A DNA stretch of 42,438 bases from positions 1 through 42,438 of IMG/VR virus record IMGVR_UViG_3300037504_000632; one strand, written 5' to 3'. Source of the stretch: a virus. Positions 12,493-29,566 of this stretch are shown here, in pieces. Each line of letters begins with the position of its first letter. Within the stretch, counting starts at the first letter, position 1. The notes below the pieces were generated by a model. It worked only from the letters and a program-made list of their open reading frames with translations. It did not search any database and had not been told where the DNA came from. Position numbers and translations under genes: made by a program.

Positions 12493-12677
12493 TGGCAAAG
12501 CGGTATATCATCATCACGATTGAGAATGGCCGGGTGGAGTATGAGGTGGCAAATCTACCCCATATGGAGATACAATTGGCCCTGACCGACGTGATGCGGG
12601 ATAATCTGAGAAAATGGCAGGAAGAGCAGCAGGCCAGAAGCCGCCGATCAGAGGAGATCGCCGATGATACGGATTGA
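12492..12677 (+). CDS. Small tail-tip-associated hypothetical protein
   Basis: This encodes 61 residues, starting at the last base of the distal tail stop (TAATG) and overlapping the next gene by 14 bp. A short beta part (RYIIITIENGRVEYEVANLP) is followed by an amphipathic helix rich in Gln, Arg and Glu. I recognise no family. The coupling on both sides suggests it belongs to the tail tip, perhaps as a small assembly factor. Confidence 0.6.
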   Translation: MAKRYIIITIENGRVEYEVANLPHMEIQLALTDVMRDNLRKWQEEQQARSRRSEEIADDTD

Positions 12678-14982
12678 TCTGCTAGATCCGACCACCGGAT
12701 TTGTGGCCGGGAATCAGCCGATCAGGACAGCCAGCCGGGTGCGGCGCACGCTGGGCCTGGACCGAATCGGCAAATGGGCATTCGATGTATCGGTGGCAGA
12801 CCCGGCATTCGAGAATATCGAGGGTAGCGATTTTCGGGTGTATTGGGCCAGCGGAGGCGATACGCATCTGCTGGGCGAATGCAGCTATCTCGATCACGGC
12901 GTGCAGGCCCAGGCCGGAGGCGCGGCGGTCTCGGTGCAGGCCAGCGGGCGACTGCGAGATCTGGCCCGCCAGACCGTGCTGCAGCGATCTTTTGATGGAG
13001 CGACCGATACCGTGAATGATGTACTGAGCGAGATCGTGCCGCTCAGATCGGGCTGGTCTCTGGGGGATGTGGACACAATCACCACGCCCGCCCCGATGGA
13101 TTTCTGGTACGAGACGGTGTATGACGGGGTGCGGCTGCTGGCAGAGACATTTGATTACCATTTCCGGGAGGGAGCGACCAGCAAGACGCTCGATTTTGGC
13201 GCATTCGGGGATGATAGCGGTCTGCTGCTGGTCGGCGGCTCTCAATTCGCCTCCGTTTCGGGGATGCGGCGCACCCGCAGCGTGGCCCGGATCGAGCAGA
13301 TCGGGGTATCGTATCGGGGCGGAGATGTGGTCAATCGGTTGATCCCGTTTGGCGGAGCGGTCGGGGTGGCGACGATTGATCTGAGCGAGACGACATCCAC
13401 CCAGGCCGGATACCCGGTGCAATCGGCGGCCCTGCCCGGCGGGGGGAGCTACTATTATCTCGAAGATTCCGGCAGCATCAGCACGTATGGCCTCACCGAG
13501 CGGAGATTTTTGCGCAAAGATCTGCGGCCCATCTCCAACAGCCCGGCGGCGCGGGAGTATGCGGCCAATATCCTGTACGAGGCGACCCTTGCCAGCCTGC
13601 TCAGGCTGAAGGACCGGCAGATCACATACGATGTATCGGTGGCCGACTGGCAGCCGGGCCTGGTCCAGCCGGGCGACAAAGTGAGGCTGATGTTCCGGGG
13701 CTTCGCCCAGGCGCGTGACAGCAATGGCGGATTGACCTGGCTGGATATAGATGATGAGAGCCAGCCGGGGCAGGGCAAGGAATTTTATATCCTCGAAATT
13801 TCCGAGGAGTTCGGGGACGGGGTGCGGGCCAGCCTGAAGCTGAACGAAAACGGGGTCAGCGAAAAAACGACCGAGAATCTCTTGGCCGAAACGATCCGGG
13901 CCTTTGAAACGGCCCAGATCCACGTGCAACCGACGATCAGCCGGTACACGCAAGGGCCGTATGTGAAGCGGGTCTCCCAGGCCGATAGCGTGAGCGCCGA
14001 TTTTACAATTACGCTCGGACCGGAGACGCTCGATATCTGGTACGTGAAAATCCAGGTCGTCGGCGAGCCGCTCAAAAGCTCCGTGAAATCGGTGGTCGAT
14101 GACGGTGGCACGACGGAGACCAGCACCGATGATGGTAGCGTGGAACAGACCACCGCCGGCGGCGGGGGGATCAATCAGACGACGCTGGGGGGCGGGGGGA
14201 TTAATAAGACGACGCTCGACGGCGGGGGGATCAATAAGACGACGCTCGGCGGCGGCTCGATCAACAAGACGACCCAGGGCGGACAGGCCCACAGCCATTC
14301 ATTGACGCTAGTGGATCACGTTCACGCCGTGAATACATCGGATCATACTCACAATGTCACGATCAAGAATTCATTAAATACATCATTACCGACATTGCGC
14401 TACGATTCATCTGATAGCTCATTTCCGATCAAAAAAATCGGCACGGCCGGCGCGCCGGACGATGCGCAAACAAGTTCCAGTGACGGCGGGGAAAATCTTA
14501 CATCCGAAGACGGCGGAGGCACGACGGAAACATCATCGGATGAATCGACGCATACCCACAGCGTATCGGTAGCCGATCATACCCACAGCGTATCGGTGGC
14601 CGATCACACCCACAGCGTATCGGTGGCCGATCACACCCACAGCGTATCGGTGGCCGATCATACTCATAGCGTATCAATCGAGGCCCACTCCCACAGCGTC
14701 ACCATCCCGGATCATACCCACGCCACCCAGTATGGCATTTTCGAGGATACCCAGCGACCCGATTCGCTCACAATCCGGGTCAACGGCTCGATTGTTGCCA
14801 GCGGGGTCACGCTGGATGCCGGGAATGATTACACATACGAGCTGGATATTACCAGCGATATCCTGGCGGCGGCCACGCTGCAGCAGGATCACACAATCAG
14901 GATCGAGCCGGGCAGCGGGCGGGGAGATGTGATTTTTCAGGCCCAGATTCTGGCCGTCATCCAGGGGATTACGGTATCATGA
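12664..14982 (+). CDS. Tail-tip protein (Tal / baseplate hub-like) with His-x-His repeat fibre
   Basis: This encodes 772 residues. The N-terminal 400 resemble the tail-tip hub proteins that follow the distal tail gene (RVRRTLGLDRIGKWAFDV..., VSYRGGDVVNRLIPFGGAVG..., ITYDVSVADWQPGLVQPGDKVRL). Residues about 495-540 are a 10-residue repeat (GGGGINKTT type). Ten HxH motifs then follow in two groups, including seven in tandem units of HTHSVSVAD. The C-terminal 95 residues are beta rich. HxH pairs bind iron in trimeric fibre tips such as T4 gp37. The protein probably contacts the host. No peptidase motif was found. Confidence 0.75.
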   Translation: MIRIDLLDPTTGFVAGNQPIRTASRVRRTLGLDRIGKWAFDVSVADPAFENIEGSDFRVYWASGGDTHLLGECSYLDHGVQAQAGGAAVSVQASGRLRDLARQTVLQRSFDGATDTVNDVLSEIVPLRSGWSLGDVDTITTPAPMDFWYETVYDGVRLLAETFDYHFREGATSKTLDFGAFGDDSGLLLVGGSQFASVSGMRRTRSVARIEQIGVSYRGGDVVNRLIPFGGAVGVATIDLSETTSTQAGYPVQSAALPGGGSYYYLEDSGSISTYGLTERRFLRKDLRPISNSPAAREYAANILYEATLASLLRLKDRQITYDVSVADWQPGLVQPGDKVRLMFRGFAQARDSNGGLTWLDIDDESQPGQGKEFYILEISEEFGDGVRASLKLNENGVSEKTTENLLAETIRAFETAQIHVQPTISRYTQGPYVKRVSQADSVSADFTITLGPETLDIWYVKIQVVGEPLKSSVKSVVDDGGTTETSTDDGSVEQTTAGGGGINQTTLGGGGINKTTLDGGGINKTTLGGGSINKTTQGGQAHSHSLTLVDHVHAVNTSDHTHNVTIKNSLNTSLPTLRYDSSDSSFPIKKIGTAGAPDDAQTSSSDGGENLTSEDGGGTTETSSDESTHTHSVSVADHTHSVSVADHTHSVSVADHTHSVSVADHTHSVSIEAHSHSVTIPDHTHATQYGIFEDTQRPDSLTIRVNGSIVASGVTLDAGNDYTYELDITSDILAAATLQQDHTIRIEPGSGRGDVIFQAQILAVIQGITVS
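14146..14283 (+). repeat. 30-bp tandem repeat coding GGGGIN(K/Q)TT
   Basis: Four 30-bp units and a partial fifth code for QTT-AGGGGIN, QTT-LGGGGIN, KTT-LDGGGIN and KTT-LGGGSIN. The units differ by a few substitutions. The repeat probably makes a flexible or collagen-like stalk before the HxH region. Confidence 0.9.
14551..14727 (+). repeat. 27-bp tandem repeat coding HTHSVSVAD
   Basis: Six 27-bp units and a partial seventh each begin with the codons for His-Thr-His or His-Ser-His. Units 2-4 are nearly identical at the DNA level, which indicates recent slippage or duplication. Confidence 0.95.
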
Positions 14983-17591: not shown

Positions 17592-17885
17592 TCAACGAGG
17601 GATTAGACGAACACGGAGGGTGTCAAACGAGAGACGCTCCATATCGTCCACGATGTACCCTCCGCAATCCGTAGAGGTCGACACTCGGTGCGTCCCCTGC
17701 CACGATTCAGTGGGCTCCTTCTCCTCAGAGATGGAGATACCAAAACTCGTTTCGGTATCTCCGATTTTCACATCGTACCCATAGGGTACGCTCGTGTACA
17801 TCGAGTTCACCTCTATCAGGCGGACTCGATCTCCAATATTGAGATCAATATTGGCGGAAATATCCACGACTTTAATGTCTTCCAT
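17592..17885 (-). CDS. Hypothetical small beta-rich protein
   Basis: This encodes 97 residues. I chose the ATG at 17885 because it follows GAGGAGAAATAAA, and an in-frame ATG 42 bases upstream lies inside the hairpin element. It is acidic and beta rich (DIKVVDISANIDLNIGDRVRLIEV), with the segment LNIGDRVRL resembling a small barrel. I recognise no family. It is the last gene of the minus-strand unit that starts at the 18785 promoter. Confidence 0.65.
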   Translation of the reverse strand: MEDIKVVDISANIDLNIGDRVRLIEVNSMYTSVPYGYDVKIGDTETSFGISISEEKEPTESWQGTHRVSTSTDCGGYIVDDMERLSFDTLRVRLIPR

Positions 17886-17908
17886 TTTATTTCTCCTCTT
17901 CTTCGGTA

Positions 17909-17933
17909 GGGGCGCGACTCTCGCCACACCCCC
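17909..17933 (-). promoter_or_regulatory. Intercistronic hairpin before the ribosome binding site
   Basis: On the plus strand GGGG (17909) pairs with CCCC (17929-17933), with an inner GCGA / TCGC stem. It lies between the stop at 17987 and the AGGAG site of the 17885 gene. It belongs to the hairpin family that precedes most early genes here. Confidence 0.55.
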
Positions 17934-17986
17934 GACAAGATTTATTCTTTATCCGCCCCGGCCTCGCAGCCGGGGGCTTTTCGAGA

Positions 17987-18247
17987 TTACATCCGAGCCT
18001 TTCGATGCAAGGCTCTCATTTGGAGAATCTCATTCTCCAAATGCTCAATCCGCCCAGCAGCCTCCATCTGCCGGAGGGATGGTTCATCATCTTCTTCATT
18101 ATTTTCATCTATGAGATATATGCTGTACCTGTGGACCGATCCGTGCCCTCGGCCCATATTCCAGGACAAGCCTGGAAATTCCTCTAGCAAACTATCTATC
18201 AGGCTCGTGCTGATTTTCCTCGAGAACATCATATGAAGCTTATACAT
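17987..18247 (-). CDS. Hypothetical protein with helical C-terminus
   Basis: This encodes 86 residues with a clear AAAAAGGAGACC site before the ATG. The N-terminal half reads MYKLHMMFSRKISTSLIDSL, a central part has GRGHGSVHRYSIYLIDENN, and the C-terminal third is an amphipathic helix. I recognise no family. The 3' part of the gene holds two perfect inverted repeats: GAGCCTT / AAGGCTC at 17995-18015 and a 12-bp arm pair at 18017-18043. Confidence 0.65.
   Translation of the reverse strand: MYKLHMMFSRKISTSLIDSLLEEFPGLSWNMGRGHGSVHRYSIYLIDENNEEDDEPSLRQMEAAGRIEHLENEILQMRALHRKARM
18017..18043. repeat. Perfect 12-bp inverted repeat inside a coding sequence
   Basis: CATTTGGAGAAT (18017-18028) and ATTCTCCAAATG (18032-18043) are exact reverse complements around CTC. 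The repeat lies within the coding sequence of the 17987-18247 gene, next to a 7-bp one. Confidence 0.9.
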
Positions 18248-18267
18248 TTTTGGTCTCCTTTTTATAG

Positions 18268-18282
18268 GGGGCTAATCGCCCC
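18268..18282 (-). promoter_or_regulatory. GGGGC hairpin joined to a ribosome binding site (minus copy)
   Basis: GGGGC / GCCCC with a 5-base loop stands just upstream of AAAAAGGAGA. The surrounding 30 or so bases are almost identical to 23074-23111 on the plus strand, so this is a duplicated translation leader. Confidence 0.8.
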
Positions 18283-18302
18283 GGATTTTTTTTGCGGCTT
18301 GC

Positions 18303-18348
18303 GCCACAGTCCCGGCCCGCCACCTGAATGATGGGCCGGAAGCGTGGT
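18303..18348 (-). ncRNA. 46-bp conserved structured element, copy 1
   Basis: This is 45 of 46 bases identical to 22827-22872. It folds into a two-tier stem: CCGGCCC with GGGCCGG inside, and CCAC with GTGG outside. In this copy the outer stem is extended by a C-G pair where the other copy has T-A. It lies between the ADP-ribosyltransferase-like gene and the next gene of the operon. Confidence 0.7.
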
Positions 18349-18353
18349 GCAAA

Positions 18354-18785
18354 TTACCTCACTTCTTCGATCTCCCACACGTGGATCCACTCCTCTTCTC
18401 CATCTTCCGTGTCCACGTAATCCACCCTGTCCGAGGCCAGGGTGTACTTCCGGTCGTCAAATTCTTGCCGGGGGATCCAGGTCCGCCCGTTGTCCTTCCA
18501 GGCGGTGCGGATAAATTCCGCCGGGACATCCTGGTCGTTGACCAGGATTTCGTCAAACATCGGGATCTCGGTCGTGTCGAAATCATCGAGGTCGAGATTG
18601 ACCTCGATGACGATATCGCCGTATTGAAACGCCGCGCCCATTCTCGGAGTGAGCGAAACGCCGGGGTGGTCGCCTGCCCGCTCTTCAAATATTTCGTAAT
18701 TCACATCGGTGGGACGGCTTGCTAGGAGGCCGCGATCAAGAATTGATTGAATGTTTGAGCTGGAAGTTCCGTGATAAAGTTTCAT
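18354..18785 (-). CDS. Putative ADP-ribosyltransferase-fold protein (KptA/ART-like)
   Basis: This encodes 143 residues. MKLYHGTSSSNIQSILDRGL places His5-Gly-Thr followed by the helix 'SILDRGL', the first motif of the ART/Tpt1 fold. GVSLTPRMGAAFQYGDIVIEV (42-62) matches the second strand-turn-helix motif, and DEILVNDQDVPAEFI (78-92) the third. These enzymes bind NAD+ and usually modify proteins or nucleic acids. It is first behind its own strong promoter, so it would be made early. The fold is inferred from motifs only and activity is unproven. Confidence 0.5.
   Translation of the reverse strand: MKLYHGTSSSNIQSILDRGLLASRPTDVNYEIFEERAGDHPGVSLTPRMGAAFQYGDIVIEVNLDLDDFDTTEIPMFDEILVNDQDVPAEFIRTAWKDNGRTWIPRQEFDDRKYTLASDRVDYVDTEDGEEEWIHVWEIEEVR
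18529..18610. repeat. Two perfect inverted repeats inside the ART-like gene
   Basis: TCCTGGTC / GACCAGGA (18529-18547, 3-base loop) and TCATCGAGGTC / GACCTCGATGA (18583-18610, 6-base loop) are both exact. They lie in coding sequence and are not needed for a common amino-acid repeat. Confidence 0.85.
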
Positions 18786-18833
18786 TTCTTCTCCCTTTTC
18801 TTACCGGAGGGCCATCCCCTCTGAACTATCTAT

Positions 18834-18862
18834 ATTATACCGCACTTCCGATAGATTGTCAA
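18834..18862 (-). promoter_or_regulatory. Promoter P1 (minus), sigma70-type
   Basis: On the minus strand TTGACA (18862-18857) and TATAAT (18839-18834) are 17 bases apart, a perfect consensus. The spacer holds the shared element TCTATCGGAAGTGCGG. The transcript would begin with a CAGAGGG/CCCTCCG hairpin and then a ribosome binding site for the ART-like gene. Confidence 0.9.
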
Positions 18863-18919
18863 GCGCATTTACACGACTTTTGTTATACTTTCGGAAATAC
18901 GGTAAATTGGTAAATTCAT

Positions 18920-19201
18920 TTACCTCGGAGATTCCGAGGTATCCGATCCGTCCAGTCGGAATCGGACATAGGCCAGCAGCGGACTCCGTCCGGCGGCCTC
19001 CGCCCGCCGCGCGATATGCTCGGCCTCGCAGGCCAGGCAGATCGTCTCACCCCCGGCGACATCAGCCGCCGTCAGCGGATCGCCGCATTGGTCGCACAGC
19101 TGGCCGTCCGGTGCAATGACCTGGTTGGCGCATTTGGCGCATAGCCGCAGGTCGTCCAGATTGGTTTGGGCCGGGGCGGGGCATAGATCACATTTTGTCA
19201 T
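18920..19201 (-). CDS. Small double zinc-ribbon protein
   Basis: This encodes 93 residues. Four CxxC pairs occur in order: CDLC (4-7), CAKC (21-24), CDQC (36-39) and CLAC (55-58), enough for two zinc ribbons. The rest is basic and helical. It is the last gene of the RAD52-like operon. Small zinc ribbons in phage early regions often contact nucleic acid or host polymerase, but no target is evident. Its last codons overlap one copy of the CCTCGGA palindrome. Confidence 0.7.
   Translation of the reverse strand: MTKCDLCPAPAQTNLDDLRLCAKCANQVIAPDGQLCDQCGDPLTAADVAGGETICLACEAEHIARRAEAAGRSPLLAYVRFRLDGSDTSESPR
18922..18940. repeat. CTCGGA-N3-TCCGAG palindrome, copy 2
   Basis: ACCTCGGA and TCCGAGGT form 8-bp arms around GAT, the longest of the five copies. 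It lies at the end of the 18920-19201 gene, upstream of promoter P1 (minus). Confidence 0.85.
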
Positions 19202-19215
19202 CTTTTTTTCCTATC

Positions 19216-19245
19216 GGCCCGGCCAGGGCGCACCCCGACCGGGCC
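19216..19245 (-). promoter_or_regulatory. Intercistronic hairpin
   Basis: GGCCCGG / CCGGGCC, 7 bp, lies between the stop of the RAD52-like gene and the start of the zinc-ribbon gene. It is another member of the hairpin family between early genes. Confidence 0.7.
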
Positions 19246-19251
19246 ACAAAA

Positions 19252-19923
19252 TTACTCCTCTATCGGCAGGGCCTTCTCTTCGGCAAATTGCTGAAGCAAG
19301 GCCCACATTTCATCCTCTTTGGCCTCATCGTACTGATCGAAGCCATTTTCTCGCATTATTTTGACGGCCCGCATGACCGCCAGGCCCAAGTCGGTCTGCA
19401 CCCGGCGGAAAAATCTGGCCTTCGGCCCGTCCCCCTGAATGACCCTGCCGTTGGTGGGGGCGGGGGCGGGCTGGCCGCCGCCGTATACATCCGGGCTATC
19501 GCCGTACAGATCGAGGGCGACGCCCAGCAGCGAGGCGCATTTTTTGAGCGCATCGCTGGCCGCGGCCTTGAAATCATCGGCCAGGGAGATGATATCGCCC
19601 TGTCTGGTGCGCTTGACGGACGCACCACCAAATTGTTCTTTGGTGATGTCGCCGCCAGGCGCGTGAACCACCAGGCGGCCCTTGACGATGATTTCCTCCG
19701 GCGCATCGAGGGCCGGAAAGATTTTTTCTTCAATTACCTCGAACGACCAGGCCCAATTGAAGGCCTGATTGAGCGTTCGAGTGACGTAATCGTGTGACAC
19801 GTAGCTGAGTTTCGTCCCCCCGCGCCCCCGGCGGCTCTTCACGACATCCGCCGGGGTTCTCTGGCTCAGGACGGCCCTTTGCGCTTCATTCAGGCCATCC
19901 TGGGCGATGATATTATCCGACAT
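19252..19923 (-). CDS. RAD52-like single-strand annealing protein (Sak/RAD52 family)
   Basis: This encodes 223 residues. The block KLSYVSHDYVTRTLNQAFNW (38-57), a long strand-strand-helix stretch, then KEQFGGASVKR (95-105) and DDFKAAASDALKKCASLLGV (116-135) together match the RAD52 DNA-binding core. The C-terminal 75 residues are a flexible linker and a helix. Phage RAD52-like proteins anneal complementary single strands in recombination-dependent replication. I see no partner exonuclease next to it, but a RecB-type nuclease is encoded at 28841. Confidence 0.85.
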   Translation of the reverse strand: MSDNIIAQDGLNEAQRAVLSQRTPADVVKSRRGRGGTKLSYVSHDYVTRTLNQAFNWAWSFEVIEEKIFPALDAPEEIIVKGRLVVHAPGGDITKEQFGGASVKRTRQGDIISLADDFKAAASDALKKCASLLGVALDLYGDSPDVYGGGQPAPAPTNGRVIQGDGPKARFFRRVQTDLGLAVMRAVKIMRENGFDQYDEAKEDEMWALLQQFAEEKALPIEE

Positions 19924-20149
19924 TTTCGCACTCCTCTAGCCAGCCGATGACGCGGCCAAGTGCCAAAATGCCGCCTTCATCCTCGCATATCTCGCAAAAA
20001 ATTTCTGAGCCGCGTGACGCGAATTGTATCGCGCCGGGATCACCGGCCTCGATCCGTTCGGCGCAAGAGTGACAAAGGCACACAAGGTTGCCTTCATCAT
20101 CCTCGGAGTATCTACCTGAAAAATCGTAGTAGAAATTTGCTTTATTCAT
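19913..20149 (-). CDS. Small cysteine-rich (zinc ribbon) protein
   Basis: This encodes 78 residues. I chose the ATG at 20149 over an upstream TTG because GGAG lies about ten bases before it. CLCHSC (about 25-30) and CEIC (about 52-55) make one zinc site. It overlaps the RAD52-like gene start by 11 bp, so the two are translationally coupled. It may assist DNA binding, but I recognise no family. Confidence 0.65.
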   Translation of the reverse strand: MNKANFYYDFSGRYSEDDEGNLVCLCHSCAERIEAGDPGAIQFASRGSEIFCEICEDEGGILALGRVIGWLEECENVG

Positions 20150-20174
20150 TATCAATCATCTCCTCTTGGGTAAA

Positions 20175-20199
20175 GAGGGGACGGGGCTACCGCCCCCTC
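20175..20199 (-). promoter_or_regulatory. Intercistronic hairpin
   Basis: GAGGGG / CCCCTC and a competing inner GGGGC / GCCCC stem lie between the SWIM protein stop and the AGAGGAGAT site of the next gene. It has the same placement as the other early hairpins. Confidence 0.6.
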
Positions 20200-20208
20200 G
20201 ACGAAAAA

Positions 20209-20853
20209 TTAAAATGGGATGTCTTCATCGGCCAGATGAAAATGGCCGATCTCGGTGTCCCTCCGGATGGTATCGTACCCCGTCCGACAGGTGCATTCCC
20301 CCTCAATGCCGGGAATGCCGGGGAAATGGCCCAGGCCGTCGCAGTCGCCGCAGCGGACCGGGAACTCTCCGTAGTAGGCGAGCAACACGGCGGCGACGTG
20401 CTTGCACATCCGGCCACCGTACACGGTGACCGGGGCGCGGTGGGCGTAGTCCGGGCAGTCGCAATGCCATTCTTTCGGCATTCCGATCTCGCTGACCCGG
20501 TACATCCGGCCTTCCTCCGTCTGCGATTCCACGCGGGAATCGCTTAAAATGTGGCCGCCGATGAGGAGCTGGGCGGCCTTGAGGAAGCGGATCAGGGTGG
20601 CGGCCCGGACCTGCTCCTGGATATCGGCGGGGAGCGTCGGGGGGACGCTCAGTTCGGCCAGGCTCTCGACCTGGGCGGCCACGTCCGGGTAGTCGGTCCG
20701 GAGCGCCGAGAGCATTGCCTCCTGATGGCTGCCATGCTCCTGGACCTGGCCGTTGACAGAGAGCCAGACGCCCCGTTCGGCATCGTGGCGGACGGCGGTA
20801 GTGCTCTCTCGCTCAATAAGGGGGTTGACGTGATCGTTATTTTGTGCTATCAT
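20209..20853 (-). CDS. SWIM zinc-finger protein
   Basis: This encodes 214 residues. I chose the ATG at 20853 because it follows AAAGGAGATTAGTACA. Residues 131-152 carry C-x-C-x16-C-x-H (CDCPDYAHR...CKHVAA), the SWIM zinc-binding motif. A second cysteine cluster at 168-190 (CGDCDGLGH...CTC) resembles a DnaJ-type knuckle. SWIM domains bind DNA or proteins. In several organisms SWIM proteins act with recombinases. It is the first gene of the unit that also encodes the RAD52-like protein, which fits a role in recombination. Confidence 0.75.
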   Translation of the reverse strand: MIAQNNDHVNPLIERESTTAVRHDAERGVWLSVNGQVQEHGSHQEAMLSALRTDYPDVAAQVESLAELSVPPTLPADIQEQVRAATLIRFLKAAQLLIGGHILSDSRVESQTEEGRMYRVSEIGMPKEWHCDCPDYAHRAPVTVYGGRMCKHVAAVLLAYYGEFPVRCGDCDGLGHFPGIPGIEGECTCRTGYDTIRRDTEIGHFHLADEDIPF

Positions 20854-20881
20854 TGTACTAATCTCCTTTATGGGTTTGCCT

Positions 20882-20917
20882 CCGTCGGACGTACCAGGTC
20901 CGACGGGGGTTTTTTTT
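20882..20917 (+). terminator. Hairpin with T-run: plus-strand terminator, minus-strand leader hairpin
   Basis: CCGTCGGAC (20882-20890) pairs with GTCCGACGG (20898-20906). On the plus strand it is followed by GGG and a run of T, giving an intrinsic terminator shape. For the minus-strand gene it lies in the leader, ahead of the ribosome binding site. Confidence 0.6.
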
Positions 20918-20935
20918 ATTTCCAACTTCCCTCTT

Positions 20936-20964
20936 ATTATACCGCACTTCCGATAGATTGTCAA
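20936..20964 (-). promoter_or_regulatory. Promoter P2 (minus), sigma70-type
   Basis: On the minus strand TTGACA (20964-20959) and TATAAT (20941-20936) are 17 bases apart, identical to P1 over the spacer and the 30 bases upstream. It drives the SWIM, zinc-ribbon and RAD52-like genes. Confidence 0.9.
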
Positions 20965-20987
20965 GCGCATTTACACGACTTTTGTTA

Positions 20988-21005
20988 TACTTTCGGAAAT
21001 ACGGT
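20988..21005. promoter_or_regulatory. Operator-like site between divergent promoters
   Basis: TTTCGGAAATACGGTAA resembles, in inverted orientation, the ATACCGCACTTCCGATA sequence inside promoter P2. Together they frame the divergent region. A second copy stands at 18890-18907. The small regulator at 21065 is the obvious candidate to bind, by inference. Confidence 0.5.
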
Positions 21006-21015
21006 AAATTGCCTA

Positions 21016-21045
21016 TTGACATTCCGATACAATCTATGGTACGAT
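21016..21045 (+). promoter_or_regulatory. Promoter P3 (plus) for the small regulator
   Basis: TTGACA (21016-21021) and TACGAT (21040-21045) are 18 bases apart. The spacer begins TTCCGATACAATC, which resembles the operator sequence of the strong promoters. The -10 is weaker than P1 and P2. Confidence 0.7.
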
Positions 21046-21064
21046 AAAAGCGGAGGTGAAAATT

Positions 21065-21286
21065 ATGCCAATTCGATTTAAATTAGATGAGATTATGGAA
21101 GAGCGCGGCCTTACCTATGCCCAGGTCTCCGCGATGGCCGGCGATATGAGCACAGATACATTGTGGAAGATCGTCAAAAATCGCGGCAAAATGATCGGCG
21201 TCGATGTCCTGGGCCGCTTGCTTGAGGCCCTGGAGATCGAGCCGAATGATCTGATCGAGGTCATTCCTGGGGGTGGGGAGAAATGA
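21065..21286 (+). CDS. Cro/CI-type HTH transcriptional regulator
   Basis: This encodes 73 residues, almost only a helix-turn-helix domain (LDEIMEERGLTYAQVSAMAGDMSTDTLWKIVKNRGKMIGVDVLGRLLEALEI). The ATG at 21065 follows GGAGGTG by a good distance, so I prefer it to an in-frame GTG at 21056. The gene is divergent from the SWIM/RAD52 unit, with operator-like repeats between, the classic arrangement of a lambda-like switch. Without an integrase it may time early expression rather than keep lysogeny. Its stop overlaps the next ATG. Confidence 0.8.
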   Translation: MPIRFKLDEIMEERGLTYAQVSAMAGDMSTDTLWKIVKNRGKMIGVDVLGRLLEALEIEPNDLIEVIPGGGEK

Positions 21287-21930
21287 GGATCGTCCATTGC
21301 GTCGCAGACTGGGACAGGATGGCCCGCATTACGGAATTGAATGATTTATTCTACCCTCATTTATTCCTGGTCCGGGAAAACCAAATATCGTGGGGTGATG
21401 ATTCCGCCGCTTACACGCCGGACGGCCTGCGAGCCATCTGTCCTGAGTGCGATGATTTCGAGCAGGCTCTCAGGCTATTGCCCTCCTGGGGGCGGAAAAT
21501 TAGTTTCCGCATCGGGAATTTTGATTGGGCCGATCATCCCGGCTACAAAGAAATATTTCGGGATGAGATTATATCGCATCTTGATATACCGGATAATGCT
21601 AATCTATCCGGTGCTTGGATGGATGGAGCATCTGCTATATCTCCGAATGGCCCGGTCCTATATGGCGAGTGGGAGGTGTGGCTCAATCTGGATAGCATAT
21701 TCTCCATTCTATTTTCGGCCCGATTCTGGCCGTGGGATCATTCTCTCAGAATTACGAGCGAATTCCACATAATGGAGTGGAATGAATTCCGAGGGAGCAC
21801 TCGGTTGACTGGCTTCTACTGCTTGCCGGACGCCCTGGATCATCTCAAGCGGATGGAAAAAAGCCGGTCAGACTTTGATCTGATAATCCCGGATTGGGCC
21901 AATCATCGCAATTCCGAAATTGGCCCTTGA
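21283..21930 (+). CDS. Hypothetical protein, unknown function
   Basis: This encodes 215 residues, starting in an ATGA overlap with the regulator. It is rich in aromatic residues, especially Trp, and mixes helices and strands. Segments such as YPHLFLVRENQISWGDDSAAYTPDGLRAICPECDDFEQAL do not match a family I know. The coding sequence contains perfect inverted repeats at 21492-21510 (GCGGAAA / TTTCCGC) and 21588-21612 (ACCGGATA / TATCCGGT). Its stop codon lies inside the -35 box of the next promoter. Confidence 0.7.
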   Translation: MRIVHCVADWDRMARITELNDLFYPHLFLVRENQISWGDDSAAYTPDGLRAICPECDDFEQALRLLPSWGRKISFRIGNFDWADHPGYKEIFRDEIISHLDIPDNANLSGAWMDGASAISPNGPVLYGEWEVWLNLDSIFSILFSARFWPWDHSLRITSEFHIMEWNEFRGSTRLTGFYCLPDALDHLKRMEKSRSDFDLIIPDWANHRNSEIGP

Positions 21931-21955
21931 CAATCTATCGGAAGTGCGGTATAAT
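21927..21955 (+). promoter_or_regulatory. Promoter P4 (plus), sigma70-type
   Basis: TTGACA (21927-21932) and TATAAT (21950-21955) are 17 bases apart with the same spacer as P1 and P2. The sequence upstream of -35 is coding, so the upstream block shared by P1, P2 and P5 is absent here. It drives 22007-24565. Confidence 0.9.
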
Positions 21956-21969
21956 ATAGATAGTTCGGA

Positions 21970-21988
21970 GGGATTGGCCCTCCGGTAA
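21970..21988 (+). promoter_or_regulatory. 5' leader hairpin after P4
   Basis: CGGAGGG and CCCTCCG pair around ATTGG, within about 15 bases of the likely transcription start. The same hairpin follows P1 and P5. It may protect the mRNA 5' end. Confidence 0.8.
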
Positions 21989-22006
21989 GAAAAGGGAGAT
22001 AAAGAA

Positions 22007-22321
22007 ATGCAAGTTTTTGAAAAATGGATGATCGCCAGATACGGCGGAGATGAAGAAATTGAGGTTGAGGGGAAGGCCTGGGAAACACTCTTTCCCGAGA
22101 ATAAAAATCGTATGTCCCACCTTTTGCCCCTTGTCTCGTTCATCGGCGGAGAGTTGCCGCCGGTTCTTAAAGAACTCGGCATTACCCGCCGAGATCTCGA
22201 AAGTCTCTCTATTAGAGAGACTTTCGAAGTGCTAGACTCGATTTCATCTTTCTTGGCGGCCAAGAAAGATGAAATCAATCAGGCGGGCCATCTGGCCCGC
22301 CTGATTGAGGCCAGCAGATAA
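22007..22321 (+). CDS. Hypothetical protein with palindrome-dense coding sequence (paralogue of 35996-36304)
   Basis: This encodes 104 residues: MQVFEKWMIARYGG, then helical segments (LLPLVSFIGGELPPVLKELG, DLESLSIRETFEVLDSISSF). I recognise no family. It is closely related to the minus-strand gene 35996-36304, including promoter, leader hairpin and 3' hairpin. From 22146 to 22308 the coding sequence is a chain of inverted repeats, some with 14-18 bp perfect arms, so the transcript must be highly structured. The locus may act as RNA as well as protein. Confidence 0.7.
   Translation: MQVFEKWMIARYGGDEEIEVEGKAWETLFPENKNRMSHLLPLVSFIGGELPPVLKELGITRRDLESLSIRETFEVLDSISSFLAAKKDEINQAGHLARLIEASR
22197..22308. 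repeat. Three long perfect inverted repeats in a coding sequence
   Basis: Arms are 22197-22210 with 22214-22227 (TCGAAAGTCTCTCT), 22240-22257 with 22259-22276 (GATTTCATCTTTCTTGGC), and a 14-bp pair (AATCAGGCGGGCCA) around TC just after. All arms match exactly. Shorter stems lie upstream (GGCGG/CCGCC, GTTCTT/AAGAAC, CTCGGC/GCCGAG). Confidence 0.9.
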
Positions 22322-22327
22322 TTCATC

Positions 22328-22358
22328 GGGGGCGTGGCGGCCCGGCTGTCGCGCCCCC
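22328..22358 (+). promoter_or_regulatory. Intercistronic hairpin joined to a ribosome binding site
   Basis: GGGGGCG (22328-22334) pairs with CGCCCCC (22352-22358), followed by AAAAGGAG. Nearly the same sequence occurs at 35955-35990 (minus) and 23510-23540 (plus), so it is a repeated module. Confidence 0.75.
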
Positions 22359-22376
22359 CCCAAAAGGAGAAACGAA

Positions 22377-22817
22377 ATGGGTAAGGGATTGGGAGCAATC
22401 TTAGCAGCAAACGAGATGAGCCGAAAGGCGAGTCTCGTATCAGAAAGGCAAGCTCCGGCGTGCCCGCTGTGTGGGCAGCCGATGGAACACGAGCTGGGCG
22501 GCTGGTTTTGCCGCTCAGAGGATGACGATTACGGGGGGCAACGACCCTGCGTATTTCGGGCCAAGAAGGGCGTAGAGAAAGAGTTTTACGCCCAGGGCTT
22601 GGGTCATCTCTCCCGTGATGACTTTCAAGGCCAAACGCTGGCCGCCATCATCAAGGATGGCGAGCCTTTGGTAGAGTTGGTCACAATTCGGGGTAGAGGC
22701 GGACGAACGAACCTCCGCTTGTGGTCCGACATTTCAGATCACGACCTGCCCGAATTGTGCGCGGACGGGGAGTGGACCTGGATGGATTGGGCGTATCCAT
22801 TCAGGCATCAAGGGTAG
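22377..22817 (+). CDS. Hypothetical zinc-finger protein
   Basis: This encodes 146 residues with the AAAAGGAGAAACGAA site before the ATG. Residues 29-58 have CPLCGQPMEHELGGWFC and a later C, giving a topoisomerase-like zinc ribbon. The C-terminal part (LVTIRGRGGRTNLRLWSDISDHDLPELCADGEW) is unassigned. It lies in the P4 unit of unknown early genes. Confidence 0.6.
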   Translation: MGKGLGAILAANEMSRKASLVSERQAPACPLCGQPMEHELGGWFCRSEDDDYGGQRPCVFRAKKGVEKEFYAQGLGHLSRDDFQGQTLAAIIKDGEPLVELVTIRGRGGRTNLRLWSDISDHDLPELCADGEWTWMDWAYPFRHQG

Positions 22818-22826
22818 GCGGCTCGT

Positions 22827-22872
22827 ACCACGCTTCCGGCCCATCATTCAGGTGGTGGGCCGGGACTGTGGC
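22827..22872 (+). ncRNA. 46-bp conserved structured element, copy 2
   Basis: This is 45 of 46 bases identical to 18303-18348 on the opposite strand, in the same sense relative to transcription. CCGGCCCA / TGGGCCGG and CCAC / GTGG can pair around a symmetric GCTT/GACT internal loop. Outside CCAC it has GTA with CAC on the other side, where copy 1 has GCA and CGC. Confidence 0.7.
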
Positions 22873-22933
22873 ACAAGCTGGGTCGCATTGTCGCCGGGAG
22901 GCGTACCTGGGATCGTTCCCCAGGCGGCGATAA

Positions 22934-22998
22934 GCCACCTAAGGCGAGTGCGTGGGAGCCATCTGCGGCACCAACAGGTTCGATTCCTGTTGGTGGCA
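22934..22998 (+). other. tRNA-like fold lacking an anticodon arm
   Basis: GCCACC at 22934 can pair with GGTGGC, and the T-arm motif AGG-TTCGATT-CCT is intact with a stem of 10 bp. A D-arm-like GGC...GCC follows the acceptor strand. Only about 13 bases remain where the anticodon arm should be, so it cannot be a normal tRNA. It may be a relic, a tRNA-like structure, or chance. Confidence 0.3.
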
Positions 22999-23083
22999 AG
23001 CACAGTAAGGCTGATGGTGGCGGCGAAAAATCCGGCAGGGTGCAGTAGGCCGGTCAGGTGGGCGACGCCGCAAAATAAAATCC

Positions 23084-23098
23084 GGGGCGATTAGCCCC
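23084..23098 (+). promoter_or_regulatory. GGGGC hairpin joined to a ribosome binding site (plus copy)
   Basis: GGGGC / GCCCC with loop GATTA, then CCTATAAAAAGGAGA, is nearly identical to 18255-18290 on the minus strand. It precedes the ATG at 23119. Confidence 0.8.
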
Positions 23099-23118
23099 CT
23101 ATAAAAAGGAGAATAAAG

Positions 23119-23502
23119 ATGTACCATCCAAATTTTAGAAGTCTAACTGAGCACGGGGCTGAGCTACGAAATTTCACCCCTCATCCCCTGGTCGTGGTGG
23201 ATGAGGGGGGCAACGAGATCATGAATCTTCCTTCCGAGGGCAGCATTCGCCTTCGGGAGAAGATCGATGGCTGCCCCCAAGTAGTAGACGGAATCACCTT
23301 CGTCGAGAAAGAATACCAGGCATCCGACGATCTGCCTTCTCCCGAAGAAGGCGTCCTGATCGTAGTGTCAAAAATGGTCATGGATGCGATCTCGAATCGT
23401 CTTGATCTTGTCTGCCCGGATACCGGGCCGGACAGCGCGGTTCGGGATGCTGATGGTCGTATTGTGGCCGTGAAGCGGCTGCAGTACCGGGAGATTGAGT
23501 AA
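23119..23502 (+). CDS. Hypothetical beta-rich protein of the 'LTPH' type
   Basis: This encodes 127 residues. The pattern GAELRNFTPHPLVVVDEGGNEIMNLPSEGSIRLRE, followed by VLIVVSKMVMDAI and DLVCPDTGPDSAVRDADGRIVAVKRL, resembles a small bacterial family I know only by this pattern and cannot name. It looks like a compact beta domain. The gene contains a perfect 10-bp inverted repeat (CCCCTCATCC / GGATGAGGGG, 23177-23208) and a 7-bp one. Function is unknown. Confidence 0.6.
   Translation: MYHPNFRSLTEHGAELRNFTPHPLVVVDEGGNEIMNLPSEGSIRLREKIDGCPQVVDGITFVEKEYQASDDLPSPEEGVLIVVSKMVMDAISNRLDLVCPDTGPDSAVRDADGRIVAVKRLQYREIE
23177..23208. repeat. Perfect 10-bp inverted repeat in coding sequence
   Basis: CCCCTCATCC (23177-23186) and GGATGAGGGG (23199-23208) match exactly around a 12-base loop. 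Confidence 0.85.
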
Positions 23503-23509
23503 AATTATC

Positions 23510-23539
23510 GGGGGCGTGGCGGCCAGGCTGTCGCGTCCC
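23510..23539 (+). promoter_or_regulatory. Intercistronic hairpin before a ribosome binding site
   Basis: GGGGCG pairs with CGTCCC (one G-T pair), then AGAGGAG. It is the third close copy of the GGGGGCGTGGCGGCC module. Confidence 0.65.
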
Positions 23540-23554
23540 GCAGAGGAGAAAAAA

Positions 23555-23794
23555 ATGGATAATGGGGTCAAAATAGGAAAAAGTCTGTCGTCGATAATAA
23601 GTGTCAATGCACGCTTAGCCAGGCGCATCGTCCGTCAGTACCCAGACCTGGATCTGGATACGGATGATGGGTCGACGGTAGAAGACTGCCTGCAGGCCAT
23701 AGAGACTGCTGGGCATGCAGTGCCAGATCTCATTGAAATAATTATGAGCAAAGGGCGCGGCAAGAGTCGCGCCCCGAAAGAAGAAGCAACATGA
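23555..23794 (+). CDS. Hypothetical small helical protein
   Basis: This encodes 79 residues. I chose the ATG at 23555 for its GAGGAGAAA site. A predicted helix (SLSSIISVNARLARRIVRQYP) and an acidic helix (DDGSTVEDCLQAIETAGHAV) precede a basic tail. I recognise no family. The 3' end carries the hairpin GGGCGCG / CGCGCCC, which replaces an intergenic hairpin before the next gene, overlapping by 4 bp. Confidence 0.6.
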   Translation: MDNGVKIGKSLSSIISVNARLARRIVRQYPDLDLDTDDGSTVEDCLQAIETAGHAVPDLIEIIMSKGRGKSRAPKEEAT

Positions 23795-24219
23795 ACATAA
23801 GTCCACAGGAAATAAGCCCGGAAGCAAAGGCTCTTAATGATCGTGTGGCCCAATTGCACGACCGCCTCTTGGTCCGCGACCCAGACGGGCACAATCAGGT
23901 GGGCTGCCAGATACAAAAGATCCTCTATCTGGCGGACAAACTCCCAACCGGCCTGCCGGATTGGGATGCGGTCAGAAAAATCGAACAGGAGCGCGAAGAG
24001 TACTTATTTACAATTGATTGCGACGACCGGCTCACCGAATCGGTGGATATGGCCTACTACGCCATAAAGGCCCTCCATCTGTTTGCTTCGGAGGCTGGTT
24101 TGTCGATCCCTCAATTGTTGGCCGGGGTAATCGCGAAGTACGAGCTTCGCGCCGCCCCTGGCAATCCCAAAAATCACGAGGAAGAGAGGAAGGCTGTCCT
24201 TAGAGTTGTTAGGAAATGA
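23791..24219 (+). CDS. MazG-like all-alpha NTP pyrophosphatase fold (putative)
   Basis: This encodes 142 residues. The acidic helix DDRLTESVDMAYYAIKALHLFASEAGLSIPQLLAGVIAKYEL (about 75-115) resembles the metal-binding E-x-x-D helix of MazG-type proteins. The N-terminal part has an additional helix (SPEAKALNDRVAQLHDRLL). Those enzymes remove non-canonical or alarmone nucleotides. Similarity is weaker than for the gene at 29577. Perfect stems GCCAGATA / TATCTGGC (23906-23933) and CGCGAAG / CTTCGCG lie in the coding sequence. Confidence 0.45.
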   Translation: MNISPQEISPEAKALNDRVAQLHDRLLVRDPDGHNQVGCQIQKILYLADKLPTGLPDWDAVRKIEQEREEYLFTIDCDDRLTESVDMAYYAIKALHLFASEAGLSIPQLLAGVIAKYELRAAPGNPKNHEEERKAVLRVVRK

Positions 24220-24228
24220 ATCTTATCA

Positions 24229-24257
24229 GGGGCGCGATGGTCCATCCATCGCGCCCC
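24229..24257 (+). promoter_or_regulatory. Strong 12-bp intercistronic hairpin
   Basis: GGGGCGCGATGG (24229-24240) pairs exactly with CCATCGCGCCCC (24246-24257), followed by AAAAAAGGAG. It is the most stable of the early hairpins. It has no T-run, so it is not a standard terminator. Confidence 0.8.
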
Positions 24258-24278: not shown

Positions 24279-24335
24279 GTGTTTACCGATGGCATAAGCT
24301 CTTGGAAGAGAGCAGAGAAGGAGATTGAAATATGA
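24279..24335 (+). CDS. Candidate leader micro-protein, 18 residues
   Basis: The GTG at 24279 follows AAGGAG, and the frame VFTDGISSWKRAEKEIEI ends in TGA overlapping the ATG of the next gene (ATGA). It may be a coupling or leader peptide. No other evidence supports expression. Confidence 0.3.
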   Translation: MFTDGISSWKRAEKEIEI

Positions 24336-24565
24336 TAAAGGATTACAGGGGAATGCTGTCTTGTGAGGTCATATTTAGCGTTGGATCATTCAAAATTGCC
24401 GCCTCGGAAGTGGGGCTTCGAGCCGGATTCGATAGAGTAGGCGTTTCATTCTATTTTCCGGCTCATTGGGATACTTTTTTCTATTTCGGTATAATGCCGG
24501 TCTACGATATTTGTTGGGCCATTCAAGTAGGCCCGATTAGTATCGACATCCCCAGATCATATTGA
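24332..24565 (+). CDS. Hypothetical aromatic-rich small protein
   Basis: This encodes 77 residues with the ribosome site AGAAGGAGATTGAAAT. It contains stretches rich in Phe, Tyr and Trp (VGVSFYFPAHWDTFFYFGIMPVYD), perhaps beta strands of a compact domain or a membrane-associated protein. I recognise no family. It is the last gene of the P4 unit, directly before a terminator. Confidence 0.6.
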   Translation: MIKDYRGMLSCEVIFSVGSFKIAASEVGLRAGFDRVGVSFYFPAHWDTFFYFGIMPVYDICWAIQVGPISIDIPRSY

Positions 24566-24569
24566 AAAA

Positions 24570-24596
24570 AGCCCCGGCCAGGCCGGGGCTTTTTTG
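24570..24596. terminator. Bidirectional intrinsic terminator
   Basis: AGCCCCGG / CCGGGGCT with loop CCAGG, flanked by AAAAAA on the left and TTTTTT on the right, ends the P4 unit and can act in both directions. Confidence 0.9.
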
Positions 24597-24636
24597 CTTC
24601 AATCCGGCCAATTTCGGCCAATTTTCTCATTCCCCC

Positions 24637-24665
24637 TTGACAATCCGCTATTTTTGTGATACGCT
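24637..24665 (+). promoter_or_regulatory. Promoter P6 (plus) of the replication unit
   Basis: TTGACA (24637-24642) and TACGCT (24660-24665) are 17 bases apart. The spacer CTATTTTTGTGA differs from the shared operator sequence, so this unit is probably controlled separately, perhaps by its own first gene. Confidence 0.75.
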
Positions 24666-24689
24666 TTAATTCACAAAGGAGAAAAAACT

Positions 24690-24917
24690 ATGGTATCATA
24701 CCAGGATAGATTGAAAGTGCTGCGTCGGCTTCGCGGCTGGACGCAACACGATCTTTCAATGAAATCAGGTGTCGGTCGCTCTCTGATCGGCACGGTCGAG
24801 GCCGGGTATACCCCGGCCACCGATGAGTTCAAGCAGAAAATAAATGCCGCTTTTGGCCTTGATCCCCTGGGGGAGGAGGCTGAGGCGGCATTTCGCGTAT
24901 TGAATGGCGGCGAGTGA
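24690..24917 (+). CDS. XRE-type HTH regulator
   Basis: This encodes 75 residues. The helix-turn-helix spans about 8-60 (LKVLRRLRGWTQHDLSMKSGVGRSLIGTVEAGYTPATDEFKQKI), of the Cro/CI family. It is the first gene behind P6 and may repress the replication unit. Overlap with the next gene is 1 bp. Confidence 0.8.
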   Translation: MVSYQDRLKVLRRLRGWTQHDLSMKSGVGRSLIGTVEAGYTPATDEFKQKINAAFGLDPLGEEAEAAFRVLNGGE

Positions 24918-25216
24918 TGATGTGGCAAATCGCTATCGCCGGCCTCATTTTCGGCACGGCCTACGCCCTGTTCCTCGAATTTCATCCGTTCGGCGATTTT
25001 CTCGCCAAGCAGCGGACCTGGCTATCGGTCGTGGTCGGGGTGGGCGGCTGCCTGCTGATTGCCCGCTGGCGCATCCCGGCGGAAAATTGGAATGTGATTT
25101 TCATCTCATTCCTGACCGCCGGCCTGCCGATCATCATCCGGTCATTGCGCCACGAGCAGCGTGATTGGCGCGATACGGTGCGGGAAATCAGAGAGGTATT
25201 CGAGATTGATGAATAG
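24917..25216 (+). CDS. Small three-helix membrane protein
   Basis: This encodes 99 residues. The first ATG shares one base with the previous TGA. Three hydrophobic segments (WQIAIAGLIFGTAYALFL, WLSVVVGVGGCLLIARW, VIFISFLTAGLPIIIR) are followed by a charged tail. It could be a holin, a superinfection factor or a replication anchor. Position in the replication unit argues weakly for the last two. Confidence 0.6.
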   Translation: MMWQIAIAGLIFGTAYALFLEFHPFGDFLAKQRTWLSVVVGVGGCLLIARWRIPAENWNVIFISFLTAGLPIIIRSLRHEQRDWRDTVREIREVFEIDE

Positions 25217-25430
25217 ATCGGCCCGCGATGATATCCTGGACGCCTCCCTTGAGGCCCAGCAGATCATCGCCAATATCTCGGAGATTCACGCCAATGATCT
25301 GCCCGGCCCGGCGGTGGTCCAGCTGGCCCAGATTTTTACGTTGCTGGGCAGGATCAGGTTCAGGGCCAGAGATATCCGCTGCAGTCACCCAGCCGGCGGC
25401 CAGGCCGATCATCCAGGCCAGAGGGATTAG
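25209..25430 (+). CDS. Hypothetical small protein
   Basis: This encodes 73 residues. The ATG at 25209 overlaps the previous gene by 8 bp. The first 50 residues are helical (DDILDASLEAQQIIANISEIHANDL). I recognise no family. It is probably translated with its neighbours, between a membrane protein and the initiator-like gene. Confidence 0.5.
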   Translation: MNRSARDDILDASLEAQQIIANISEIHANDLPGPAVVQLAQIFTLLGRIRFRARDIRCSHPAGGQADHPGQRD

Positions 25431-26689: not shown

Positions 26690-27568
26690 ATGACAAGAGA
26701 GATGAATCTAGAACAAGTAGAAGTCGACAATTCATTCAATCCCCGCATCGGCGCACTCGATCAGGATGCGGTGAATGAATACGCCCAGCACATTGAGGCC
26801 CTGCCGCCGATGGTCGCCTTCGAGCTGGAAGGCCAGAATCGGACGGTGTTGGTGTGTGGATTCCATCGCTACGCCGCCCACCAGCTGGCCGGAGCGGAGA
26901 CGGCCAGCTTCGATATCCGGCAGGGCACGGAGGATGAAGCCAGAGAGTACGCCGATCTGGACAATCTCCGGCACGGCATCCGGCTCACCCGCTCCGAGAA
27001 AAGGCTCGTAATCCGCCGTTATCTGGCTCGCAATAGCCGGATGTCTGATTCGGTGGTGGCGCGGGCCTGCCACACCACCGACAAAACGGTGCGCTCCGTG
27101 CGCCGGGAGATGGAGGCGACCTCGGAAATTCCGAGGCACGAGAGTCTGGTCGGGGCGGATGGTGTGGAGCGACCTCGCTCGATCAGCCGCCCCCCGCCCG
27201 AACCGGACGGGCCGCCTGCCGGCAATATCTCATCCACTATCACCGGCGGGCCTGATCCGGATCACCGGTCCGATGATCGGGCGGCGGATATCGCGCCCCC
27301 GCCTGCCCCGACCGCTGCCCAGGTCGCTCCGCCGCCCCCGCCTCCCCCGTCGCCGGCGGTCAGCCGTCCGGCCCTGGTCATCACGGCCAGCGTGCCGGAT
27401 GATGGACCGGTGGTGGTATCGGCCAAGCGGGGGGATGTGATGCTTGGCCTGGAGAGCGGTAGCAAATATGACCTGGGTCGCCTGGCCCAGGATATGATGG
27501 AAGAATACATAAATCAGCCGCCGGATAAAGAGTGGCTGGAGGAGAGTGAAAATGGCAACGCTGTATAA
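26690..27568 (+). CDS. ParB-like nuclease/partition protein
   Basis: This encodes 292 residues with the site GGGAGAACG before the ATG. N-terminal motifs NSFNPR (14-19), and CGFHRYAAHQLAGA (about 61-74), match the ParB/sulfiredoxin superfamily, the second being the DGxHR-like segment. A helix-turn-helix follows (RMSDSVVARACHTTDKTVRSVRRE), then a proline-rich linker. Such proteins bind centromere-like DNA and, with CTP in some members, slide along it. In PRTRC gene sets a ParB-like gene stands at this place. TGCAATTGCA palindromes just upstream are possible binding sites. Confidence 0.75.
   Translation: MTREMNLEQVEVDNSFNPRIGALDQDAVNEYAQHIEALPPMVAFELEGQNRTVLVCGFHRYAAHQLAGAETASFDIRQGTEDEAREYADLDNLRHGIRLTRSEKRLVIRRYLARNSRMSDSVVARACHTTDKTVRSVRREMEATSEIPRHESLVGADGVERPRSISRPPPEPDGPPAGNISSTITGGPDPDHRSDDRAADIAPPPAPTAAQVAPPPPPPPSPAVSRPALVITASVPDDGPVVVSAKRGDVMLGLESGSKYDLGRLAQDMMEEYINQPPDKEWLEESENGNAV
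27120..27136. repeat. CTCGGA-N3-TCCGAG palindrome, copy 3
   Basis: CCTCGGA-AAT-TCCGAGG has 7-bp arms. It lies inside the ParB-like gene, at the codons after its helix-turn-helix. Confidence 0.85.
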
Positions 27569-28848: not shown

Positions 28849-29566
28849 TCTATCAGTATTCGATAATATTCAGTTCGATGGCATTCGCCATCGCTATTTT
28901 TGCAACGGGGGGCTGGAGCTGAAAAGCGTCACCAGGCGGTTATCTGCCCTCAAGCCCAGATTCGACGCCGATTTTTGGGCCAATCGCAAGGCCAGGGAGC
29001 GCGGTGTCGAGCCGTCGGTCATCCTGGCCGAGTGGGAACAGAAGCGGCGGGATGGCCTGGAGCGGGGCAGCCGAGTGCACGAGGCGATACAGGCCGTGCT
29101 TGATCCCGAAAGCGGGGCGGTCAACCGGGCCGCCGATCTGCCGGAATTTCGGGCATTCCAGAAATTCTGGCTGGATGCGGGCCAGATTCTGCTCGGCCCG
29201 CTTGGGGTGGAGCAGATTGTCGGTTCGGTCGGCTGGAGAATCGCCGGCACGGTCGATCTGGTGTACACCGACGGCCAGAATCTTGGCCTGATCGACTGGA
29301 AGTCCGGCCTCAAATTCCGTACCGAAAATGATTACGGACGGCTGCTCCCGCCGTTTGACGACCTCGACAATTCCGAGCTGGCGAACTACTCGCTGCAGAT
29401 CAATCTGTATCGCCTGCTGATCGAGCGGGCGACAGGCCGGGATGTGGACGAGGCCTATCTCGTGCATCTGAAGCGGGATGGCGACTACGAATTATACGAG
29501 GCCCTTGATCTGGCCGATCGACTGCACGCCTGGATCACCGAAGAGCCGGAAGAGATTCCATTTTAG
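28841..29566 (+). CDS. PD-(D/E)xK nuclease, RecB/Cas4-like
   Basis: This encodes 241 residues. I chose the ATG at 28841 because it follows GGAGG. The order GSRVHEAIQ (77-85), E124, GTVDLV (136-141, D139), IDWKSG (151-156, D152 and K154) and YSLQINLYRLLIE (183-195, Q186) fits the RecB-type exonuclease core. Such nucleases process DNA ends and commonly work with annealing proteins such as the RAD52-like one encoded at 19252. The gene lies inside the ubiquitin-like cassette, between the F-like and E2-like genes. Confidence 0.8.
   Translation: MIDLSVFDNIQFDGIRHRYFCNGGLELKSVTRRLSALKPRFDADFWANRKARERGVEPSVILAEWEQKRRDGLERGSRVHEAIQAVLDPESGAVNRAADLPEFRAFQKFWLDAGQILLGPLGVEQIVGSVGWRIAGTVDLVYTDGQNLGLIDWKSGLKFRTENDYGRLLPPFDDLDNSELANYSLQINLYRLLIERATGRDVDEAYLVHLKRDGDYELYEALDLADRLHAWITEEPEEIPF

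Follow-up and report, generated by a model that had tools for sequence, protein, structure and literature searches.

In RNA viruses, genome-scale ordered RNA structure takes the form of pervasive structure through the coding RNA. Across the tree of life, strong local folding of messenger RNA (mRNA) inside coding sequences is selected (PMC7063772), and in double-stranded DNA (dsDNA) viruses folding is weak at start codons (PMC3072339). Template switching homogenizes the arms of inverted repeats and inverts their spacers, both in yeast coding DNA (PMC8604942) and in RNA stems (PMC8794818), and the mitochondrial genes of Nematomorpha carry coding palindromes of up to 284 bp (PMC6649704). In Cluster K mycobacteriophages, a conserved 13-bp sequence, SAS, is present at translation starts, and a 17-bp imperfect inverted repeat, ESAS, lies upstream (PMC3203893). 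The viral record IMGVR_UViG_3300037504_000632, analyzed here over its whole length of 42,438 nt (hereafter the window), contains a module of 14 genes at 17592-24219 (minus strand at 17592-20853, then plus strand at 21065-24219) that is dense in perfect hairpins within coding sequence. We call these genes early on the basis of the gene layout, the term denoting the non-virion genes of this block.

The original prediction was that exact stems are spread through the early genes at a density without parallel in the capsid and tail genes. Counts of stems with arms of at least 7 bp and loops of at most 12 nt, compared by module with synonymous-codon shuffles (500 per gene), bear this out on both points. 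The early genes contain 31 stems in 6.44 kb (4.8/kb) against an expectation of 7.5, a number reached by none of the 500 shuffles; with arms of at least 9 bp there are 10 stems versus 0.6 expected, and with arms of at least 10 bp, 7 versus 0.23. When gene 22007 is left out, 28 stems remain versus 7.1 expected. The virion genes contain 32 stems in 17.05 kb (1.9/kb; 19.4 expected), and the remaining right-hand genes contain 38 in 16.2 kb (17.1 expected). A second null model, local second-order Markov sequence for the whole region including intergenic DNA, gave 41 stems versus 7.3. Mirror and direct repeats served as controls for specificity: in the early genes, inverted repeats with loops of 3-12 nt number 27 versus 4.6 expected, mirror repeats (spacing 0-12) number 2 versus 4.2, and direct repeats show no clear increase. 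In the virion genes, mirror and direct repeats are raised as much as inverted repeats; the mild virion excess is therefore not specific to hairpins. An excess specific to inverted repeats is present in the right-hand genes, weaker than in the early genes. The hairpin excess in the early genes, which extends to nearly every one of them, goes far beyond what the protein code needs and is specific to inverted repeats.

A survey of 83 random viral contigs, drawn by an arbitrary 15-mer and processed with the same automatic gene caller, gave a median observed/expected stem ratio of 1.01 and a maximum of 2.06, against 3.5 for the early module. Stems with arms of at least 10 bp numbered 25 in the 833 kb of surveyed coding DNA versus 7 in 6.9 kb of the early module. 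In 40-nt windows, the early module folds 1.54 kcal/mol more strongly than its shuffles; the corresponding difference in the survey (50 contigs) has a median of -0.22 and a minimum of -0.85 kcal/mol. The early module is an outlier among the surveyed viral contigs. One might suspect an artifact, whether from composition, from codon context or from erroneous gene calls, given that the virion genes are mildly raised in every repeat kind, so that the codon shuffles are slightly lenient, and that most early genes are orphans without a known family. However, the early mirror and direct repeats show no clear rise, the two null models concur, the 83 contigs treated alike center on 1.0, most early reading frames have Shine-Dalgarno sites, and both copies of gene 22007 (see below) keep their reading frame across a 6-nt indel; the matched controls rule out such an artifact, to which we attach next to no credence.

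The polarity of the stems bears on their origin. A process acting on DNA generates stems equally on both strands, whereas selection on mRNA should tolerate G-U pairs solely where they form in the sense RNA, and the antisense equivalent of a sense G-U pair is A-C. Helices with 8 or more pairs, one to three of them of this kind, were counted and compared with 400 shuffles. Sense G-U helices in the early genes number 21 versus 9.5 expected (0/400 shuffles), whereas A-C helices show no excess (8 versus 10.3). The G-U excess is found separately in the minus-strand genes (G-U, 9 versus 3.6; A-C, 3 versus 5.7) and in the plus-strand genes (G-U, 12 versus 5.9; A-C, 5 versus 4.6), and the polarity thus tracks gene direction. 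It survives the removal of gene 22007, persists among helices lacking a perfect core of at least 7 pairs (G-U, 17 versus 7.7; A-C, 7 versus 9.2) and is absent from the virion and right-hand genes; the polarity score of the module is 3.57 versus a maximum of 2.07 in the 83 surveyed contigs. An earlier G-U/A-C count limited to one mismatch yielded small numbers. The sense-only G-U excess suggests that early mRNA is selected for its folding, and we infer that the polarity reflects selection at the RNA level. The strand symmetry expected of template switching is not seen across the module, which makes template switching alone insufficient. Both early-mRNA structure and template switching had been put forward as causes in the original prediction: the former gains module-wide support from the G-U strand comparison, whereas support for the latter comes from the two copies of gene 22007 and is confined to that gene.

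As in the systems in which local mRNA folding has been described (PMC7063772; PMC3072339), the early genes fold more strongly than codon-randomized controls and lack helices right at the gene start: none of the 34 sense helices (at least 8 pairs), all of which lie in the module together with nearly all early coding stems, begins within 30 nt of a gene start. Action on the sense strand is indicated by G-U versus A-C helices, the energy difference alone being non-significant. Unlike the pattern in PMC7063772, the folding here is concentrated in one module, has a large effect size (-1.54 kcal/mol per 40 nt) and takes the form of discrete hairpins; moreover, helices are common near gene ends, where that paper reports weakening. 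Genome-scale ordered RNA structure concerns the genomic RNA of RNA viruses, whereas only some transcripts of a DNA phage would be affected here; the likeness, by analogy, would lie in the pervasive structure of coding RNA.

We lean, at little better than even chances, towards the reading that early mRNA is selected for local folding and that template switching supplies some of the perfect stems. Early mRNAs would be selected to form many short hairpins in their coding parts, away from start codons, and the leaders between early genes would likewise be selected for hairpins; changes that complete a stem, whether synonymous or altering the protein in a tolerated way, would be retained if the pairing arises in the transcribed strand. 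Template switching during replication may, in one event, rewrite one arm from the other and so yield some of the perfect stems, with gene 22007 and its second copy as a putative visible instance of such copying. At a guess, the benefit could be a longer life or a lower accessibility of early mRNA, be it to ribonucleases, to Rho loading or to an RNA-targeting defence. It is doubtful that the whole early transcript block forms chains of hairpins, arising by template switching and selected in the sense RNA, such that the early mRNA resists host ribonuclease, Rho or RNA-targeting defence. If the selection is real, the coding part of one gene block in a DNA virus would be shaped by RNA structure beyond anything in the 83 random contigs, unshaped virion genes would adjoin this block, and the purpose of early-mRNA structure in phages would become testable through synonymous recoding.

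Gene 22007 (22007-22321, plus strand) encodes an orphan protein of 104 amino acids, for which searches found no PHROGs or Pfam family, no match in named phages and no relative in viral contigs; in the second half of the gene, three perfect hairpins follow one another (fold z -11.1). Hairpin 1 (22197-22227) has 15-bp arms and a single-base loop centered on 22212, hairpin 2 (22240-22276) has 18-bp arms and a single-base loop centered on 22258, and hairpin 3 (22275-22308) has 16-bp arms and a loop of 2 nt, all on the plus strand. A second copy with 89% protein identity lies on the minus strand at 35996-36304 and contains hairpin 1 (arm 18) and hairpin 2 (arm 13), hairpin 3 being perfect in the first copy alone. 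The inverted duplicate, which includes promoter and leader, spans 35940-36385 and is 93% identical to the gene 22007 unit. Within the gene, the copies differ by 11 scattered substitutions, the 6-nt in-frame indel and one clustered block at 22272-22287 with 9 substitutions in 16 nt; the copy 1 version of this block both extends hairpin 2 and completes the pairing of hairpin 3, and the block alters several amino acids (EINQAG in copy 1 versus VLEEAD in copy 2). Two of the 11 scattered changes hit exactly the single-base centers of the first two hairpins, each exchanging a base for its complement (T/A at 22212, G/C at 22258), an outcome for which our own arithmetic (11/291 x 10/290 x 1/9, with about 291 sites) gives a chance of about 1.5 in 10,000. 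Arm homogenization and spacer inversion are the two outcomes that PMC8604942 describes for template switching in the coding DNA of yeast; the former corresponds to the arm-homogenizing clustered substitutions at 22272-22287 and the latter to the complemented centers at 22212 and 22258, though these are single bases only. As in the published cases (PMC8604942; PMC8794818), both outcomes are seen, here between two copies inside one phage genome; unlike in those cases, the spacer inversions are single bases and, taken individually, weak evidence. From the two sequences we infer that template switching probably made the copy differences, and likewise the direction of change. If so, the pair would provide, within one genome, a model for the one-step origin of perfect coding hairpins. 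The resemblance to Nematomorpha lies in perfect inverted repeats inside genes whose proteins presumably remain functional; here, however, the arms measure 7-18 bp and are accompanied by a sense-strand G-U signature.

The same copies would fit an origin by mutation only, in which frequent template switches during replication of this region, favored perhaps by high transcription or a nearby origin, would perfect quasi-palindromes, the orphan proteins tolerating the changes and selection playing no part. The arm-perfecting block and the complemented loop centers match the yeast outcomes (PMC8604942), and the arms are perfect and end abruptly, with Watson-Crick pairing just outside the stems at the chance level of 27%; the stem excess, furthermore, is found on both strands. 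Genes shared with the only relative found, all of which lie outside the module, are also in keeping with mutation, as their stems are not conserved and double changes are paired in 19/55 cases versus 88/221 in a control of long-spaced pairs. Mutation alone does not, however, predict a sense-only G-U enrichment that reverses with gene direction, nor, though this is a weak point, that no helix begins in the initial 30 nt of a gene, and we hold it to be possible but rather unlikely. The lack of conservation nonetheless counts against selection for early-mRNA folding, as do several further points. The folding excess amounts to z -12.1 on the sense strand and z -12.4 on the antisense strand, with a sense-minus-antisense difference of only z -1.3, because perfect stems are strand-symmetric. 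The strand comparison was picked after the other tests had been inspected, and no close relative with alignable early genes was found.

Additionally, C-to-T damage of the coding strand in transcription, acting on stems of other origin, could mimic the G-U polarity: template switching would have built the stems, and the damage would then have made G-C into G-U pairs. On reasoning only, such damage would yield G-U but no A-C pairs, and stems would be expected to form and decay side by side; hairpin 1 in copy 1 of gene 22007 has two decayed rungs, one of which is T-G. The other rung, however, is C-A, and with A-C helices at 8 versus 10.3 the decay would have to be almost purely C-to-T on one strand. 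The T of the G-U pairs, moreover, lies at silent third codon positions in just 11/30 cases. We consider this false polarity quite improbable and retain selection on early mRNA, with some stems supplied by template switching, as the preferred reading.

All eight early-gene stems named in the original prediction were located, each inside an open reading frame, although the one placed at 18529-18547 has ends one base off. The minus-strand genes contain these at 17995-18015 (arm 7, loop 7), 18017-18043 (arm 12, loop 3), 18528-18548 (arm 9, loop 3) and 18583-18610 (arm 11, loop 6), and the plus-strand genes at 21492-21510 (arm 7, loop 5), 21588-21612 (arm 8, loop 9), 23177-23208 (arm 10, loop 12) and 23906-23933 (arm 8, loop 12). 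Further minus-strand coding stems lie at 17733-17762 (arm 9, loop 12), where the sense RNA forms 13 pairs with one G-U, and at 17833-17854 (arm 10, loop 2), and the SWIM zinc-finger gene (20209-20853, minus strand) has five with arms of 7-8 bp. The dense part extends from about 17592 to 24219, the next four genes (24332-25430) being devoid of sense helices, and the codon phase of the stems is the same as in the shuffles. The stems might instead be discrete signals, such as leader hairpins, terminators, operators or binding sites, that overlap genes; promoters and leader hairpins do recur through the module, and a 15-bp palindrome dispersed in the genome has one of its copies in the stem at 18921-18941. 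The coding stems have no common sequence motif, however, which largely refutes discrete signals for them; none of the 31 is followed on the sense strand by the T-run of an intrinsic terminator, and Rfam yielded no family at gathering score and chance matches only at lax thresholds. Discrete signals are thus, in our judgment, a highly improbable source of the coding stems.

Directly before the Shine-Dalgarno sequence of most early genes lies a G+C-rich hairpin, and several of these hairpins, with G-U pairs, are copies of each other. The intergenic hairpin just before the Shine-Dalgarno sequence of gene 22377 (22328-22358, plus strand), with several G-U pairs, belongs to such a repeated set, which is also found before genes 17592, 23555 and 23791 and after 24219. 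A cassette of promoter (TTGACA-17-TATAAT) and leader hairpin precedes gene 22007 (21923-21999, plus strand) and is one of four near-identical promoters in which these elements are perfect, the others lying at 18790-18866, 20935-20968 and 36312-36385 (all minus strand), most of them followed by a leader hairpin; a search for the promoter pattern in viral contigs gave no match. In position, the leader hairpins resemble ESAS of Cluster K (PMC3203893), being repeated inverted repeats before the translation starts of non-virion genes. The defining 13-mer of SAS, however, is missing from the leader alignment and upstream list, the leaders are of different sequence, and the hairpins within genes are a separate matter.

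The 15-bp palindrome, CTCGGAAATTCCGAG, is dispersed in the genome, with 18 strand matches at up to 3 mismatches versus 2.1 expected. Its sites are at 8033-8047, 13792-13806, 18924-18938, 27121-27135, 29363-29377, 34733-34747, 38052-38066 and 40868-40882; it is a candidate binding site for a repressor or ParB-type protein, and a ParB-like gene (26690-27568) contains one exact copy. A 52-nt structured intergenic element occurs twice in opposite orientation (22827-22878 and 18297-18348, 96% alike). The non-coding stretch 22820-23118 holds a hairpin resembling a transfer RNA (tRNA) T-arm at 22969-22995; no tRNA was predicted there, nor any tRNA gene elsewhere in the window. Gene 12664-14982 contains tandem 27-nt and 30-nt repeats at 14524-14739 and 14117-14296, respectively.

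Positions 1-127 of the record are identical to 42312-42438, so that it is probably a complete genome, circular or permuted. Capsid and tail genes occupy the left 17.5 kb, and terminase and portal lie at the right end; the minus-strand genes at 17592-20853 include, besides the SWIM zinc finger, a Rad52-like annealing protein (19252). The sole relative found, contig IMGVR_UViG_3300005512_000112, is 60% identical in terminase and 70% in capsid; capsid and terminase searches returned no further relative, and the terminase search in genome contigs returned nothing. The relative has 1.0 stem/kb, near its expectation. Its 33.9-37.8 kb stretch contains 7 stems versus 2.6 expected, mostly in one 570-codon frame, and was set aside as a replicate because this frame has no counterpart in the window. 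Searches of viral contigs found no relatives of exonuclease 28841 or the Rad52-like gene 19252, and the relatives of gene 23119 are all distant, with identities of 39% or less.

Among other phages, Streptomyces phage FlowerPower has a 3.3-fold coding-stem excess along its whole genome, with arms of at most 10 bp and without sense polarity; in its relatives (L143-L148) stem density stays high and individual stems are mostly not conserved. This excess seems to be of another kind and to arise at the level of DNA. The opposite trend is seen in phage T7 (5 coding hairpins versus 22 expected) and in contigs L098 and L131 (1 versus about 8 expected), where depletion is strong and mirror repeats are approximately normal.

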